From Arthrobacter sp. TMP15 (GTDB lineage: Bacteria > Actinomycetota > Actinomycetes > Actinomycetales > Micrococcaceae): 64,000 bases of DNA. Location: assembly GCF_039529835.1 (NCBI RefSeq), contig NZ_CP154262.1, forward strand, positions 186,001 through 250,000. Reading direction: 5' to 3'. This document shows positions 57,704 through 64,000 of this stretch, piece after piece. Each line of letters begins with the position of its first letter. Positions within the stretch are counted from its first letter, which is position 1. A program made the translations under genes and the position numbers. The notes beneath the pieces are model-generated. The model was not told the origin of the DNA. It saw nothing but the letters and a program-made list of their open reading frames with translations, and searched no databases.

Positions 57704-58189
57704 TTGAATACCGCATCAGATCAAGGAACTTCACGTATTGAAGCGCGCATGGCGGAGCTTGGCTTAAGCCTTCCTGCCGTGGCCGCCCCGGTGGCGGCCT
57801 ATGTGCCGGCCGTGGTCTCAGGCAAGCACGTTTATACCTCAGGCCAGCTGCCATTTATTGATGGCAAACTCACAGCTACCGGCAAGGTGGGCGCCGAGGT
57901 TTCCGCTGAGGACGCAAACTCCATGGCCGCAACTGCCGCTATCAACGCCATTGCGGCAGTTAAAAGTGTCATTGGTGACCTTGACCGTGTGATCCGGATC
58001 GTGAAAGTTGTGGGCTTTGTTGCCTCGGATCCGTCTTTCACCGGTCAGCCGGGTGTTGTTAACGGTGCCTCGGAACTGCTCGGTGAAATATTTGGCGAGG
58101 CAGGCGTGCACGCACGCTCCGCTGTTGGGGTTTCCGTTTTGCCATTGGATTCCCCCGTTGAGGTTGAGCTGATTGCCGAATTCCAGTAA
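57704..58189 (+). CDS. ridA: RidA/YjgF family deaminase
   Basis: A 161-residue protein of the RidA family (reactive enamine/imine deaminases), some of which relieve 2-aminoacrylate stress. The core shows VVSGKHVYTSGQLPF, VGAEVSAEDANSMAATAAINAIAAV shortened here as AATAAINAIAAVKSV, and HARSAVGVSVLPLDSPVEVELIAEF, the C-terminal family signature. A TTG start follows AGAAGG in the upstream gene. It overlaps the next gene by 17 bases. Confidence 0.93.
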   Translation: MNTASDQGTSRIEARMAELGLSLPAVAAPVAAYVPAVVSGKHVYTSGQLPFIDGKLTATGKVGAEVSAEDANSMAATAAINAIAAVKSVIGDLDRVIRIVKVVGFVASDPSFTGQPGVVNGASELLGEIFGEAGVHARSAVGVSVLPLDSPVEVELIAEFQ

Positions 58190-59117
58190 TAATCCTGCCG
58201 TCTTCAGACCCGGCGGTACGCGGTGCTTCCCGCTGAACAATGATCAGCGGGAAGCTGCGCAGGCTTGGGTTGAATTTGGTGCGCGCACCCCCAGTAAACC
58301 GCGGCAGGCGTCATCCGTGGTGTTGTTGAAGGACAGCCCAGCCGGGTTGAAAACGTTTTTGACGTACCGGCCCGGCGGATCACCGCTGGGCACAGTTGCT
58401 TTTCCCGGCGGCACCATTGATCCCGCGGACGACGACGTGACCGACTGGGTGGGTCCCTCGGCGCTTGCGTGGGCCAAAAGCATGGGCACTGTTGACAGTT
58501 CCCTGGCCAAACGTCACGTGGTGGCTGCTATCCGTGAACTGTTTGAAGAGACCGGTGTGTTGCTTGCCGGACCGGACGCGTCGTCTCTGGTGGAAAATAT
58601 CTCTGGGGCAGACTGGATGCGCGCACGTGAGTCTATTGCGGCCCAGGAATCTACATTCTCCGCACTTCTGGAACGCTACGGCTTGGCCCTGCGTACCGAT
58701 CTGCTCAAGCCGCTGAGCCACTGGATGAGCCCGGACTTCGCGCACCGACGATTCGACACACGATATTTTGCGGCAGCAAGGCCAGTGAATCAGGAACCAT
58801 CGCTGCTCACAAGCAAGGGAGTATGGGGCCGATGGGCAAGTGCCGCAGAGATTCTTGGCGACCGTGCCACCGCCGCCCTGGGCGATGAAATAGGTGTGCC
58901 CGCCACGGCCGGACTGGCTCTGGGTGAACTTGTTGTCCCGGGCGTTGAAATAATTTTGGAAAAAATCGCTGCTGCCCGAGGCTGTATTGCCTACTTAAAC
59001 CACAAACGCGCCATCAACGAGTACCAGCCGAAGCTTGTCACCGATACCGACGAGGATTTCAGCCTTGAAGTCTCGACGGCTCCAGCATCTGAAGGTGGCC
59101 CCTGCCGGGAACGGTAG
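58173..59117 (+). CDS. Nudix hydrolase (NUDT19-like)
   Basis: A 314-residue hydrolase of a nucleotide or CoA derivative. The Nudix motif is interrupted in the usual way for this subgroup: GGTIDPADDD at the start, an insertion of about 35 residues and AAIRELFEETGVLLAG as the REUxEExGU core. The C-terminal half (RRFDTRYFAAARP, FDTRYF and LKPLSHWMSP) is typical of NUDT19/CoA-pyrophosphatase-like proteins. The TTG start overlaps ridA and no ribosome site of its own is clear, so translation is probably coupled. Substrate is inferred by family only. Confidence 0.82.
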   Translation: MPNSSNNPAVFRPGGTRCFPLNNDQREAAQAWVEFGARTPSKPRQASSVVLLKDSPAGLKTFLTYRPGGSPLGTVAFPGGTIDPADDDVTDWVGPSALAWAKSMGTVDSSLAKRHVVAAIRELFEETGVLLAGPDASSLVENISGADWMRARESIAAQESTFSALLERYGLALRTDLLKPLSHWMSPDFAHRRFDTRYFAAARPVNQEPSLLTSKGVWGRWASAAEILGDRATAALGDEIGVPATAGLALGELVVPGVEIILEKIAAARGCIAYLNHKRAINEYQPKLVTDTDEDFSLEVSTAPASEGGPCRER

Positions 59118-59139: not shown

Positions 59140-60378
59140 CTAGCTCCGTGCTGCAAGCAGATTGCTGTAGATGCCCACGAGAAGTTCTGCATGTGCACTT
59201 GCTGAAACCCGCTGTTGAGGGATAGCTAGTGTCGTGCTCATTGACGGCAGGGTGCTTGTGTTGGCCATCAACAACCGAAATGCCGCTGCGAGATCCTGGT
59301 GGCTCTGGGTAGCGGCTACTACGTAAGCGCCAACCGGCAACCCTTCCCCTAAATCAGGGTCGGAAAGCACAATTGGTAAGCCACAGGACATTGCTTCAAG
59401 TATCACCATGGGTTGATTATCAAAACCATAAGAAGATGATACAAAAGCGTGGTGTTGTTGCATGGCCGCCAGAACTTCCTCCTGTGCAACACTGCCGTGC
59501 ATCCGTACTCTATGGTCCACTCCAAGGTGTTTGACGAGCCGTTGGAGCTTGGCCGCAGCCGCGCCGTCGCCGTAAATATTGGCTACCACGGCCTCGCCAG
59601 CGGCGGCTACAGCTTGTACAAACACTTCGGGCCGTTTTTCCGGGGAGATCCGCCCACACCACATCAACTTAAGCGGCTCGTGGGCAGCCTTGGTGCGAGG
59701 TTGGGCGGTGCCCACAGAATTTAGCACGGAGTCTTCTAGACCGTTGGAGATCACGTGAACTGGTGCCGTGAGCCCTTGACGGACCAATTTGGCGGCAAAG
59801 TGAGCTGATGGCACCACCACAGCATCGGCGGTATTACCTTGGGTGGTCATCAGCTGCCACATCCGTCGCGCCACCGCGGAATGCATATAAGCATCTTCGG
59901 GATGCTCCGGCGCAGACCCATGGCCAAGGTGGCGTCGGTGAACTGCGGCAAGCACGCGAGTAGTAATCTCGGGAACGGGAAGAACATTGGCTGTGTAGAC
60001 ATCCAAGCGACCGTGCATGCTCTGCACCAAAGGCAGACTCAGCGTCCGAGCGGCCTTTATACCGGCAAGGGCGGCGAAAATTTCTGAATGTACATGCACC
60101 ACATCAACGTTCCTCTCTGCGAGCGCTGCCGTGAGCACCTCAAACGCTTTTTGAGGTGGCCACGTGAACGGAAACCCATCCGGTTTGAACGCCTTGGAAG
60201 CAGGCAAAGCCACCACATCCGGGTCAAGGGAATCCAGGTCAGTGGAAGGAGTATGAAGTGGGGCGAAGATAGTAACGTGATGGCCCAGTTGACTCAGCGA
60301 CTCCTTTGCCGCCTTGATGGCTGTCTGTACCCCGCCAAGCGTTGGCAGGTAATAGTCGGTCACCATGGCAATGTGCAT
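59140..60378 (-). CDS. GT4-family glycosyltransferase
   Basis: Cytoplasmic GT-B glycosyltransferase of 412 residues, similar to mannosyltransferases of phosphatidylinositol mannoside or glycolipid synthesis. The N-terminal GGVQTAI donor/acceptor loop and LPLVQSMHGR precede the sugar-nucleotide half with VISNGLEDSV, LMWCGRISPEKRPEVFVQA and SYGFDNQPMVILEAMSCGLPIVLS. The first Glu of the usual EX7E pair is replaced by Asp. It is convergent with the Nudix gene and divergent from the SDR/MBL/ketosynthase cassette across 123 bases, so the promoters may be shared. A glycolipid link with the cassette is speculation. Confidence 0.9.
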   Translation of the reverse strand: MHIAMVTDYYLPTLGGVQTAIKAAKESLSQLGHHVTIFAPLHTPSTDLDSLDPDVVALPASKAFKPDGFPFTWPPQKAFEVLTAALAERNVDVVHVHSEIFAALAGIKAARTLSLPLVQSMHGRLDVYTANVLPVPEITTRVLAAVHRRHLGHGSAPEHPEDAYMHSAVARRMWQLMTTQGNTADAVVVPSAHFAAKLVRQGLTAPVHVISNGLEDSVLNSVGTAQPRTKAAHEPLKLMWCGRISPEKRPEVFVQAVAAAGEAVVANIYGDGAAAAKLQRLVKHLGVDHRVRMHGSVAQEEVLAAMQQHHAFVSSSYGFDNQPMVILEAMSCGLPIVLSDPDLGEGLPVGAYVVAATQSHQDLAAAFRLLMANTSTLPSMSTTLAIPQQRVSASAHAELLVGIYSNLLAARS

Positions 60379-60501
60379 GTTTCAACTATAGGGACGTCCC
60401 AGCGATTCCTCCCCACACCAAACGCCAGTGCGCCGACCTGGACATGGGCAGATGTCCGCGTGGTGGATTGTGGTTTGGCTCTGTGGTTCTACGATAGGCA
60501 A

Positions 60502-61515
60502 ATGACTACTGATCCTTCCGGTGAGCCGCCCGTGGTTCTGATTACTGGAGCCACGGGGTTCCTTGGCGGATATGCAGTCCAGGAATTCATCTCCCAAGGA
60601 TTCCGCGTGCTCGCCCATGGCCGCAACCCTGCCGCGCTTCAGCGGTTAGAGCTCATGGGCGCCCAAACGATAGTGGGTGATCTTGCCGGGCTTTCGCAGC
60701 TTCGGAGACCTGTTGATGTTGTGGTGCACGCGGCTGCACTTTCGAGCCCTTGGGGGCGGTGGCCGGATTTTGAACTCAACAACGTAACCGGCACAGCCCA
60801 CGTGGTCAGCTTTATGGAAAGAAACGCAGTTCCGCGTCTGGTCTTTGTCTCTTCCCCCAGTGTGTACGCGGATAGGGGGGACCGTCTTGCCATCAAGGAA
60901 AGCGAGCCTATCCGGCGTCGACCGCTAAACTCCTACATCCGTTCCAAGGTGGCAGCCGAGGCACTTCTGCAAGAAGCTCACGGCTTGGGACGGGTGAAGG
61001 AATTGGTGATGATTCGTCCGAGGGGCATCATCGGTGCCGGCGACACAAGTGTTGCGCCGCGGCTACTTTCTGCGTATCGGAAGATTGGTGTCCCTCTTTT
61101 TGCCGGCGGGGAGAACCTGGTGGACCTCACAGCAGTTCAGAACGTGGCGTACGCGCTGCGGCTGGCCGCTTGTGTTCAGGATGCTTCTGGGCAGGTGTAC
61201 AACATCACGAACGGCCAGCCACGGGCCTTCAAAGACTTGCTGGAGATCCTCTTTCGGGAGTTGGATCTGCCACCACGCTACCGCCGGGCCAACGCCTCCT
61301 TGTTCTTCGCATTGGGTGCGGTCTTGGAGAATATTTTCGAGCTGGTCCCGGGTTCACCCGAGCCGCCGTTGACAAGATACATGGTCTCCACCATTGCCTA
61401 TTCTCAGACTCTGGACATCTCGCGCGCCCGCGATCAGCTAGGTTATGAGCCTCAGGTGGATATTGAATCTGCACTTGCCGCCTTTGCAACCGGATACGGG
61501 GGAGAACATGCCTAA
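60502..61515 (+). CDS. OleD-like NAD(P)-dependent reductase (extended SDR)
   Basis: A 337-residue extended short-chain dehydrogenase. The nucleotide motif TGATGFLGG is at the N-terminus; the catalytic Tyr145 and Lys149 lie in NSYIRSK, with Ser in VSSPSVYAD. The segment MIRPRGIIGAGDTSVAPRLL and NLVDLTAVQNVAYALRLA resemble 3beta-HSD and OleD enzymes, which reduce a 2-alkyl-3-keto acid. The ATG at 60502 is chosen since homology begins at MTTDPSGEPPVVLITGA; the frame is open much further upstream. It overlaps the MBL gene by 8 bases, the first gene of a three-gene cassette. Confidence 0.85.
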   Translation: MTTDPSGEPPVVLITGATGFLGGYAVQEFISQGFRVLAHGRNPAALQRLELMGAQTIVGDLAGLSQLRRPVDVVVHAAALSSPWGRWPDFELNNVTGTAHVVSFMERNAVPRLVFVSSPSVYADRGDRLAIKESEPIRRRPLNSYIRSKVAAEALLQEAHGLGRVKELVMIRPRGIIGAGDTSVAPRLLSAYRKIGVPLFAGGENLVDLTAVQNVAYALRLAACVQDASGQVYNITNGQPRAFKDLLEILFRELDLPPRYRRANASLFFALGAVLENIFELVPGSPEPPLTRYMVSTIAYSQTLDISRARDQLGYEPQVDIESALAAFATGYGGEHA

Positions 61516-62275
61516 AGGACGGCTGAGCTATTACGCCTGTGGATACACCACTCATCAGATGAAACAACTGATGCGCTCTGCGCCACGCGAGCGCAGAACC
61601 TTTCCCGCTGGGGTATTCCTGTATCAGCACCCAGACGGGCGCAACGTGCTGTTTGACACCGGCTACGCACCGGCAACCTGGCGGGCCGGGATCAAGGGAT
61701 TTCTTTACAATCTGCTACTGCCTGTACGCCTAGCAAAAGAACAAAATATTGCCGCTCAGCTATCACGTGATGGCATATCCGTGGACTCGATCACGTACGT
61801 GGTGTTGTCCCACTTGCACCCGGATCACATTGGCGGAGCGCGGTACTTTCCTCAAACCACCTTTGTCCTAAGTACACCGATGCTGGCAACGCTTTCTCAA
61901 GCCAAGCTGCAGGAAGGTTTCCTTCCCGGGCTGCTGCCGCAGTGGTTTAGCGCAGCCCAGAAACTGATTGTTGATCCAGAATTAAGTGAATTCGACCTCC
62001 TGGGCGATGGCAGCTATCGCTTAGTTGGTCTGCCGGGGCATGCGCAAGGACACATGGGTGCACTGGTTGAAGAGCGCGCCCTGCTGGCCGGGGATGCCTC
62101 CTGGGGCGAGGACTTGATGGGGGAGGTTCCGCGTATGAAGGCAGTGCCTAAGGCGATTACGCACAACTGGGTTGAATACCAGGAAACCGTCCAGCGAGTG
62201 CAAAGGATGAAAGGCAATGGAATTCAACTATATTTCAGTCATGATCCCCAAGATCGCAAGCAATTGTTCTCATGA
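61508..62275 (+). CDS. Metallo-beta-lactamase-fold hydrolase
   Basis: A 255-residue metallohydrolase. The metal motif HLHPDH occurs at residues 102-107, with further ligands in GHAQGHMG and LLAGDASWG. VLFDTGYAPATWRAG and the overall pattern resemble N-acyl-homoserine lactonases. Its ATG follows GGGGGAG in the end of the SDR gene and overlaps it by 8 bases. The substrate is not visible in the sequence. In this cassette it could open a lactone or a thioester made by the ketosynthase and reductase. This is an inference. Confidence 0.85.
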   Translation: MPKGRLSYYACGYTTHQMKQLMRSAPRERRTFPAGVFLYQHPDGRNVLFDTGYAPATWRAGIKGFLYNLLLPVRLAKEQNIAAQLSRDGISVDSITYVVLSHLHPDHIGGARYFPQTTFVLSTPMLATLSQAKLQEGFLPGLLPQWFSAAQKLIVDPELSEFDLLGDGSYRLVGLPGHAQGHMGALVEERALLAGDASWGEDLMGEVPRMKAVPKAITHNWVEYQETVQRVQRMKGNGIQLYFSHDPQDRKQLFS

Positions 62276-62313
62276 CCTGCAGGAACCAACAACACTCAAC
62301 AGGGGGAAATACA

Positions 62314-63273
62314 ATGACGGAGCCTGGTCGAATACTCAGAATTCGTAATTGCCGTATTGCTGGATACGGAACGTACCTTCCGGAGAATCAAATAAAATTT
62401 GGGAATCAGAGACGGTACCGGGTTCCGGAGGGGGTAAGTCAGCTTGACATGCTCACTTCGGCAGCCGCGGACGCTCTAGCCCGGGCCGGTGTCAAGGCGG
62501 ACGAGCTGGAATGTGTCATTGGCGCCAGTGCAGCGGGCATCCAGCCTATTCCTTGCACCGCTGCCCTGGTACTTGAAAAGATTGCACCTCATGGGGTGGC
62601 AGCGGCTTTCGATGTGAACTCCACCTGTACTTCCATGATTACTGCCTTGGATATTGCCTCCCGTTATATTGCCGACGGCACATACAAGAGCATTCTCATT
62701 ACAGCCGGGGACGTAGGTTCCCGTTTTCTGAACCCGGAGCAGAAGGAAAGCTTTTCCCTGTTCTCCGATGCCGCCGTTGCCTTTGTGCTGACCTCCACCG
62801 ATGACCCTTCTCAAGGAGTCGTGGCCAGCACCCAACGAACGTGGGCCGCTTACGCCCATGACACCGAGATTAGAGGCGGGCTAAGCCGCTCCCCGGCTCA
62901 ACTCTATGCGGGGGCCGACCCTGCCGATTATCTCTTTGACATGAATGGCCGGGCAGCATTGCGGAACATGATGCGGGTACTCCCTGACTTCTTGGGCGAT
63001 TTCCTTGCCCGTTCGAGTCTTGATCTAAGTGATATTTCTCTTGTTATCCCGCATCAGGCGAGCCCGGCCCTGGGTTTGGCAATGCAGAGGATAGGAATCC
63101 CGAAGGATAGCTATATTGACTGGGTGGCCGAGATTGGAAACATGGTTTCCGCATCTGTCGGCTATGTGCTGGCGCAGGTGATGGAGCAAGAACGGGTGCG
63201 TGAGGGCCAGACAGTACTTCTTTTTGGAACGGCGGCCGGGTTGACCGCCAACGCGTTGGTGCTCCGGCTGTAA
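62314..63273 (+). CDS. Ketosynthase III-like thiolase-fold enzyme (KAS III/OleA-like)
   Basis: A 319-residue thiolase-fold enzyme with the Cys-His-Asn triad of KAS III: Cys105 (VNSTCTSM), His247 (IPHQAS) and Asn276 (EIGNMVSASV), with FabH-like spacing. It starts near AGYGTYLPENQI and ends LLFGTAAGLTANALVLRL. The Cys surroundings are unlike FabH (usually xxACSG), so it may condense two acyl groups, as OleA does, or transfer an acyl chain. The ATG at 62314 has AGGGGGAAAT upstream; an ATG at 62272 overlapping the MBL stop (ATGA) is the alternative. It is the last gene before a terminator. Confidence 0.87.
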   Translation: MTEPGRILRIRNCRIAGYGTYLPENQIKFGNQRRYRVPEGVSQLDMLTSAAADALARAGVKADELECVIGASAAGIQPIPCTAALVLEKIAPHGVAAAFDVNSTCTSMITALDIASRYIADGTYKSILITAGDVGSRFLNPEQKESFSLFSDAAVAFVLTSTDDPSQGVVASTQRTWAAYAHDTEIRGGLSRSPAQLYAGADPADYLFDMNGRAALRNMMRVLPDFLGDFLARSSLDLSDISLVIPHQASPALGLAMQRIGIPKDSYIDWVAEIGNMVSASVGYVLAQVMEQERVREGQTVLLFGTAAGLTANALVLRL

Positions 63274-63333: not shown

Positions 63334-63363
63334 CGGCCCGGCCACCCTAAGGTGGCCGGGCCG
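63334..63363 (+). terminator. Terminator of the ketosynthase cassette
   Basis: Perfect 13-base arms CGGCCCGGCCACC (63334-63346) and GGTGGCCGGGCCG (63351-63363) with loop CTAA, followed by TTTCTTC. Confidence 0.92.
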
Positions 63364-63407: not shown

Positions 63408-64000
63408 CTAGCGTGAACGCTGGCGCAAACGATTGACGTCCAAGATCACAACGGCGCGGGCTTCCAAACGAAGCCAGCCGCGCTGAACAAACTCGGCCAG
63501 CGCCTTGTTGACAGTCTCTCGCGAAGCGCCGACCAGCTGGGCCAATTCTTCCTGGGTCAGTTCGTGAGCTACCAGGATGCCGTCGGTGGCCGGGCGACCG
63601 AACCGGTCCGCTAGATCCAAGATGGCCTTGGCGACGCGGCCAGGCACGTCGGAGAACACAAGATCGGAGAGGTTGTCATTGGTGCGTCGCAGACGGCGGG
63701 CCAGAGCCTGCAGCAGCTGCATGGACACCTCGGGACGGTTGCGCAGCAGAGCGTTAAGAGATTCATTCTTCAAACCGGCGAGCCGAGTTTCAGACACGGC
63801 AGTAGCTGTGGTGCTGCGAGGTGCCGGATCAAAGAGCGCCATTTCCCCGAACAGCTCTCCTGGTCCAAGGATCGCGACCAGTGATTCGCGGCCATCAGAG
63901 GATGTTCGGCCTAGCTTCACCTTGCCTGAAACAATGAAATACAGCTGATCGCCTTGATCGCCTTCACGGAACACTGAAGCCCCGCGGGAAAGATCCACCT
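63408..64000 (-). CDS. Crp/Fnr-family regulator (GlxR-like, N-terminus outside window)
   Basis: A cAMP-responsive Crp-family regulator. About 197 residues are visible; the first 30 or so lie beyond the edge. The cyclic-nucleotide domain shows VFREGDQGDQLYFIVSGKVKLG and GPGELFGEMALFDPAPRSTTATA, and the HTH domain AHELTQEELAQLVGASRETVNKAL with RGWLRLEARAVVIL. It closely resembles GlxR/Crp regulators of Corynebacteriales and Micrococcaceae, which control carbon use. The gene is convergent with the ketosynthase cassette, separated by a terminator. Confidence 0.95.
   Translation of the reverse strand, partial: VDLSRGASVFREGDQGDQLYFIVSGKVKLGRTSSDGRESLVAILGPGELFGEMALFDPAPRSTTATAVSETRLAGLKNESLNALLRNRPEVSMQLLQALARRLRRTNDNLSDLVFSDVPGRVAKAILDLADRFGRPATDGILVAHELTQEELAQLVGASRETVNKALAEFVQRGWLRLEARAVVILDVNRLRQRSR

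Follow-up and report, generated by a model that had tools for sequence, protein, structure and literature searches.

A ligase-less KAS III, reductase and metallo-hydrolase gene set in Arthrobacter and its relation to a widespread candidate lipid cassette

The window analysed here is a 64-kb stretch (G000:C1:186001-250000) of the 3.7-Mb genome of Arthrobacter sp. TMP15. It contains three plus-strand genes encoding an extended short-chain dehydrogenase/reductase (SDR), a metallo-hydrolase of the metallo-β-lactamase (MBL) fold and a β-ketoacyl synthase III (KAS III, below KAS), and a GT4 glycosyltransferase gene is transcribed divergently from them. A close relative is Arthrobacter sp. H35-MC1, whose KAS is 99% identical; the genome G157 is reported as being of the same species. 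The SDR (337 amino acids (aa), 60502..61515) most likely starts at the ATG at 60502, and the start of its open reading frame (ORF) at 60088 is not favoured. Its reading frame shares 8 nucleotides with that of the MBL protein (255 aa, 61508..62275). The KAS (319 aa, 62314..63273) most likely starts at the ATG at 62314, which has a good Shine-Dalgarno sequence (aggggg) and lies 38 nucleotides past the end of the MBL gene. An initial annotation of this DNA described all three genes as overlapping and took this as proof that they are co-translated. The first overlap is there, while the second, of 4 nucleotides, is obtained only with the alternative in-frame KAS start at ATG 62272 and is otherwise replaced by the 38-nucleotide gap; co-translation of the SDR, MBL and KAS genes is plausible rather than proven.

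None of the NCBIfam matches shown for the four proteins attains the cut-off of its model. The SDR carries the motifs TGATGFLG and YIRSK (YxxxK), and its top models are two of the OleD type, NF042423 and NF042422 (172 and 170 bits, cut-off 580), in agreement with the OleD-like core first ascribed to it. The OleD of an ole-type cluster found elsewhere in the genome also reaches just 274 bits with NF042422. The MBL protein (PF00753) is the lactonase-like hydrolase it was taken for. Its nearest relatives among the NCBIfam models are the N-acyl homoserine lactone (AHL) lactonases AttM and AiiA (79.5 and 42.3 bits, cut-offs 390 and 375), and its best PDB matches, both by sequence and by fold, are quorum-quenching lactonases. 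The metal-ligand positions H102, H104, D106, H107, H178, D196 and H245 are invariant in all seven aligned sequences, one of which is a near copy, and they fit HxHxDH-H-D-H, the metal-ligand motif of AHL lactonases such as AttM and AiiA. The GT4 protein (412 aa, 59140..60378, minus strand) matches PF13439 and PF13692/PF00534, and its top NCBIfam model is alpha-monoglucosyldiacylglycerol synthase (68.7 bits, cut-off 400).

The order-level search with the KAS (Micrococcales) matched 20 of 396 genomes at E 1e-25, and the surroundings of all 19 matches outside the own genome were examined. Eight of them are close orthologues (59-64% identity), each with a ligase gene. Six belong to a second version, cassette B, in which KAS and MBL are found together and a ligase gene adjoins in four; the rest comprise three KASs without detected partners and two FabH-like proteins. 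The gene order and strand of SDR, MBL and KAS are repeated across several Micrococcales families, well beyond chance, and the three genes are thus a conserved set in relatives. The version present in the window, cassette A, is represented by 16 pooled loci, and two of its three Arthrobacter loci are near-identical. In 13 of the 16 its order is SDR-MBL-ligase-KAS, the ligase gene lying between the MBL and KAS genes; the remaining three are those of Arthrobacter. The junction between MBL and KAS in the window (62276..62313, plus strand, 38 nucleotides) is accordingly the site of a TIGR02304-type gene in 13/13 cassette-A loci outside Arthrobacter, so that an F390 synthetase-like gene does adjoin the set in relatives. 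A GT4 gene in the same place and orientation is found in 13 of the 16 loci. Of the other three, L094 lacks it, L099 is cut by its contig end so that the gene is not visible, and Fusobacterium was found to have a GT2-like gene and no GT4 gene. The divergent GT4 gene pointed out in the initial annotation thus recurs beside the set.

No match to TIGR02304 is present in the TMP15 genome (G000), nor in G157 or G221, the other two Arthrobacter genomes with the cassette, and tblastn with the ligase gave no hit better than E 3 in the window, L006 or L030; no ligase remnant was found at the window locus (best E 3.2). Relocation of the ligase gene was considered as well and is ruled out for the three genomes searched. 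The initial annotation had likewise seen no adenylate-forming ligase, and for the TIGR02304 type this holds for the whole genome. It had, however, read the gap as a missing OleC, while what is missing, specifically in this lineage, is an enzyme of the TIGR02304 type. In cassette B a TIGR02304 match is present in G422, G598, G591 and G518, the last being a congener of G531 and G640, which have none. A tblastn search with the ligase of the congener at the G531 and G640 loci found nothing except a 32-residue piece in L102, inside the MBL region, which is taken for the overlapping frame where the query ORF begins. The ligase is thus missing in two separate branches, Arthrobacter cassette A and cassette B of G531/G640; the tree of the cassette-B genus is too weak (94/42) for counting loss events within that genus. 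As the Arthrobacter trio is nested among ligase-bearing loci, loss of the ligase in the Arthrobacter lineage is the simplest history.

This nesting comes from a KAS tree of 62 rows. FabH (15 rows) makes up one side of a 95/98 branch with the cassette KAS outside it, OleA (nine rows, 100/100) is separate, and the cassette KASs lie beyond a 100/98 branch on a side that holds 29 rows from four groups and four KASs without partners. The three Arthrobacter KASs form a 100/100 clade amid ligase-bearing cassette loci, and the KAS is placed outside both OleA and FabH. The OleA rows stand for eight of 12 loci and the genome's own OleA, and the FabH rows for 13 of 30 loci plus the FabH of E. coli and that of the own genome; L099 (contig-cut), L007 (same place as L092), L035 and L036 (copies) and the phylum-level loci L063-L091 were excluded. 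Long branches were flagged (L040, L041, L015, some FabHs, and L032-L034 with OleA), and the deep order of the tree is therefore unsure, while the position of the window's KAS within cassette A is firm.

The KAS (PF08545 and PF08541) has the intact Cys-His-Asn triad first described for it (C105, H247, N276), and the unusual environment of the cysteine was confirmed and found to be common to all cassette KASs. The motif D-[VIL]-[ND]-[SAT]-[ST]-C is present in 29/29 of these, in 0/15 FabH, 0/9 OleA and 0/9 other KASs; having been derived from the same sequence set, it is descriptive and not an independent test. The best NCBIfam model is PRK07204 (229.4 bits, cut-off 402), under whose cut-off the relative from Elusimicrobiales also remains (359.4 bits). 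A structural model of the KAS has a mean predicted local distance difference test score (pLDDT) of 78.6, with the segments 1-7, 100-102 and 187-207 under 50. The fold search does not discriminate, with FabH, CorB, MxnB, BioZ and PqsD ranking together, and no OleA structure is among its best 50 matches. Elsewhere in the own genome (L004:1312-2610) a 433-aa KAS has DpgA as its best match (148 bits, cut-off 425).

The KAS III proteins of three loci (L106, L107, L108; KAS gene at about 7.2-8.5 kb in the locus) fall inside the cassette KAS clade and have no detected SDR, MBL or ligase partners. By sequence reading, two ORFs follow the KAS gene of L106, one ATPase-like and the other permease-like (757 aa), and similar ORFs of about 760 aa are found in L107 and L108. 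A KAS paired with an exporter may represent another uncharacterised system.

The cassette, consisting of KAS, SDR and MBL and normally also of the TIGR02304 gene (named F390 synthetase-related), was found in five phyla. The initial annotation regarded the MBL protein as a stand-in at the position of OleB, but the cassettes of several phyla include it, and it is not a local substitute. A search for related loci gave ten, nine of them other than the near-identical Arthrobacter locus; all nine have a homologous SDR and a ligase gene adjoining the set. TIGR02304 scored above its cut-off in the four loci scanned (L010, L011, L014, L015), and the five other ligases were recognised by blastp to these. 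In a plasmid collection 27 of 72,556 records matched the KAS, and SDR, MBL and an F390 synthetase-related gene were present in each of the five neighbourhoods read out of the 27 (for Fusobacterium by own ORF calls). Of 5426 E. coli genomes 672, about one in eight, have the four-gene set, a patchy distribution. There it is part of a run of seven genes, KAS-SDR-MBL-TIGR02304-PAP2-sterol desaturase family-acyl-CoA desaturase (L040:9848-16729; L182:6001-12882), which sits between narI and two tRNA-Tyr genes ahead of purU.

Other partners are found in other lineages. A sulfotransferase gene lies near the set of Ketogulonicigenium. The KAS and SDR genes are separated by an ATP-grasp-type gene, and the ligase gene is followed by a GNAT-like one, in P. 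urinalis, Elusimicrobiales and three Paenibacillus loci; in Pontibacillus the ATP-grasp gene is present and the GNAT-like gene absent from the stretch. In Fusobacterium vincentii (L037:1990-4590) genes for an SDR, a GT2-like protein and a 215-aa protein are located 5' of the cassette. The GT2-like protein matches HpnI weakly (48.5 bits, cut-off 310), and all 6 cassette-B loci encode homologues of it; homologues of the 215-aa protein are encoded in L103 and L104. Three loci of one genus in the same family (L032-L034, genus g26) have a TIGR02304 gene followed by ATP-grasp and GNAT-like genes, which form a single ORF in L032 and L033. Their divergent KAS joins OleA on long branches, and an SDR gene is nearby. 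These loci may hold either a distant version of the cassette or a different pathway with common parts.

Within the genus Arthrobacter the block is an insertion between two neighbours, both named from sequence reading. The left edge is a Nudix-like gene (58173..59117, plus strand) present in 23/23 genomes of the genus, and the GT4-SDR block is found 3' of it in three (G000, G157, G221); the other 20 have no KAS match. The right edge is a gene for a CRP/Fnr-type regulator (63408..64000, minus strand, cut by the window end), which is 225 aa long in the near-identical locus L006; the G221 copy is 99.6% identical to that of L006. In 15 of the 20 cassette-free genomes a CRP gene lies at most 0.9 kb from the Nudix gene, three other loci are cut by a contig end (L114, L126, L127), and two (L124, L134) have no CRP gene within 1.5 kb. 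A family-level KAS search at E 1e-30 matched four of 395 genomes, the Arthrobacter trio and G323, which belongs to another genus (33% identity) and has no detected partners. Recent acquisition was also judged by G+C content, which is uninformative: the block has 56.4%, the rest of the window 58.4%, and windows of the same size 54.9-61.9%. A terminator-like stem of 13 pairs, 12 of them G-C, is located 3' of KAS (63334..63363, plus strand) and is the strongest of five in the window. Consensus scans gave these five terminator-like sites against a mean of 3.9 in shuffles, and one promoter-like site against 2.2 expected; as these counts are near expectation, it is by its strength that the stem stands out.

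We regard it as an evenly balanced proposition that the SDR, MBL and KAS constitute a working, ligase-less branch of the widespread KAS III-SDR-MBL-TIGR02304 cassette, with a dedicated glycosyltransferase and a β-hydroxy fatty acyl product, the activation step having been lost or taken over. In the proposed chemistry the KAS would condense an acyl thioester with another thioester, either acyl or malonyl, giving a β-keto product, which the OleD-like SDR would reduce to a β-hydroxy acyl or acid. The acid could then be set free by the MBL enzyme through hydrolysis of the thioester or of a lactone. Conversion of this acid to acyl-adenylate (acyl-AMP) for transfer would fall to the TIGR02304 enzyme in relatives, and the GT4 enzyme may attach a sugar, so that the product is probably glycosylated. 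In the Arthrobacter lineage the free (glycosylated) acid might be the end product, or another ligase might do the activation. The two kinds of glycosyltransferase, together with the desaturases, PAP2 protein or sulfotransferase of other branches, point to a lipid whose head group varies. Slightly more tentatively, the KAS-SDR-MBL(-TIGR02304) cassette may be an unrecognised lipid pathway of at least five phyla that can do without its ligase and has lost it more than once, Arthrobacter having the minimal core and making a free, probably glycosylated β-hydroxy acid.

Between the window and G221 the SDR is 75%, the MBL protein 72%, the KAS 81% and the GT4 protein 64% identical. Nonsynonymous and synonymous divergence (dN/dS) is 0.195/1.76 (about 0.11) for SDR, 0.205/2.19 (about 0.09) for MBL, 0.143/1.91 (about 0.07) for KAS and 0.274/1.74 (about 0.16) for GT4; in this pair of Arthrobacter species dN is thus well below dS, and the kept genes appear functional, although dS in the cassette genes is saturated (>1.5), which makes the ratios indicative only. 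This saturation is one of several points that weigh against the proposed ligase-less branch. The cassette genes also change faster (dN 0.14-0.27) than their neighbours RidA (0.050), Nudix (0.106) and CRP (0.003), and GT4, the fastest-changing of them, could act independently. The core of the cassette is not rigid, since the Paenibacillus relative L014 lacks the MBL gene and the cassette-B SDR gene lies, with the GT2-like gene, some kb off on the opposite strand. KAS III relatives without partners (L031, L106-L108) fall inside the cassette KAS clade. It is further possible that an already ligase-less cassette arrived in Arthrobacter by transfer.

A set without its ligase may also be a decaying remnant on its way out. 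None of the three Arthrobacter genomes in which the cassette was found has the ligase, just three of the 23 genus genomes carry the cassette, and the faster change of the cassette genes would fit decay. Two species with 72-81% identity in SDR, MBL and KAS nevertheless both retain intact frames and catalytic residues, and dN is far below dS, so we consider decay unlikely. A small-molecule signal pathway, in which KAS and SDR make a lactone signal that the lactonase-like MBL protein turns over, would agree with quorum-quenching lactonases being nearest to the MBL protein in sequence and fold. We hold it to be unlikely: the MBL protein scores 79.5 bits with AttM against a cut-off of 390, no regulator belongs to the set at the tabulated loci, the CRP gene is found nearby whether the cassette is present or not, and lipid-modifying enzymes are among the partners elsewhere.

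The remaining alternatives concern the identity of the KAS. An ordinary duplicate FabH priming fatty acid synthesis beside unrelated neighbours would have the FabH-like fold of the KAS model, whose top five PDB matches are all FabH structures. This is very improbable, as the KAS reaches 130-132 bits with the FabH model TIGR00747 (cut-off 292.1; on this and the tree a FabH paralogue was ruled out), the neighbours are conserved, and the genome has its own FabH (L001). The initial annotation had instead suggested a variant of the head-to-head hydrocarbon/β-lactone (Ole) pathway, with the KAS as OleA, the SDR as OleD and the MBL protein as OleB. Indeed, OleD models are the best NCBIfam matches of the SDR, and KAS, SDR and the adenylate-forming enzyme of relatives parallel OleA, OleD and OleC. 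The same chromosome, however, has an oleA-oleBC(fusion)-oleD-type cluster elsewhere (G000:C1:2318134-2322904; L042:7135-11905). Its OleA fits the published OleA pattern and exceeds the cut-off of PRK09258 (461 bits, cut-off 285); OleBC is a hydrolase-ligase fusion whose ligase part scores 264 bits with the olefin β-lactone synthetase models (cut-off 900), and the SDR is the OleD-like protein of 274 bits mentioned above. OleA is the only protein of this cluster that exceeds a model cut-off, and the cluster is named for the OleA pattern and for the oleA-oleBC-oleD-type arrangement that PMC7064751 describes for Micrococcales.

The pattern, EPxx[AS]x(14,18)DxxNACL as given in PMC7158056, is found in 9/9 OleAs, 0/29 cassette KASs including that of the window, 0/15 FabHs and 0/9 other KASs. 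Over 299 columns the cassette KAS shares 25% identity with the own OleA, and it lies outside the OleA clade. Neither oleC, oleB nor oleBC is found beside the cassette KAS in the window, and the ligase types differ: the cassette ligase of relatives matches TIGR02304, while the own OleBC matches OleC models, though below cut-off. The identification of the cassette as an Ole variant was rejected because of the KAS signature, the tree and the presence of a separate ole-type cluster, and such a pathway is quite unlikely. The cassette KAS might still have an OleA-type activity; PMC7064751 states that thiolase function is not predictable from sequence alone.

In the annotated records read, the cassette genes bear just generic names. 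No paper on the KAS-SDR-MBL-TIGR02304 set, including the E. coli run, was found in the open full-text literature, subscription papers being outside the scope of the search, and no open full-text paper was found for 'F390 synthetase-related' or for TIGR02304, PRK07204 and PRK06849 together. PMC2649909 reports an acyl-CoA ligase-like gene annotated as F390 synthetase in a fatty-acid cluster of D. psychrophila, and 'Coenzyme F390 synthetase' appears in PMC5467263 as the COG1541 label of a gene also tabulated with pyoverdine synthetase genes. The cassette is widespread and includes E. coli and Fusobacterium among its carriers. A natural ligase-less branch set against a four-gene relative in Microbacterium offers a comparison that would show the contribution of the orphan TIGR02304 enzyme and the product of the three-gene core. 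The locus also illustrates that an OleD-like SDR adjoining a KAS III gene is insufficient for calling an olefin pathway.

Compared with known systems, the cassette and its relatives resemble OleABCD in having a KAS III-fold condensing enzyme, an OleD-like SDR and, in the relatives, an adenylate-forming enzyme. They differ in that the KAS is not an OleA by tree or signature, the ligase of relatives is of the TIGR02304 type and not an OleC, and the hydrolase has the MBL fold, whereas OleB has the α/β hydrolase fold. FabH shares the fold and the Cys-His-Asn triad with the cassette KAS, which forms a separate clade, has another cysteine motif and remains under the FabH cut-off. The AHL lactonases AttM, AiiA and GcL have the MBL fold and all metal ligands in common with the cassette MBL protein, while the latter is only about 20-24% identical to its best fold matches, scores far under the cut-offs and is encoded in a biosynthetic-looking operon. 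A further likeness is to the sets of E. coli, Ketogulonicigenium, Pontibacillus and Paenibacillus urinalis, where homologous KAS, SDR and MBL genes stand side by side and are annotated as KAS, NAD(P)-dependent oxidoreductase, MBL fold and F390 synthetase-related protein. Arthrobacter differs from these in having no F390 synthetase-related gene, and a divergent GT4 gene instead of ATP-grasp, GNAT, desaturase or sulfotransferase genes.

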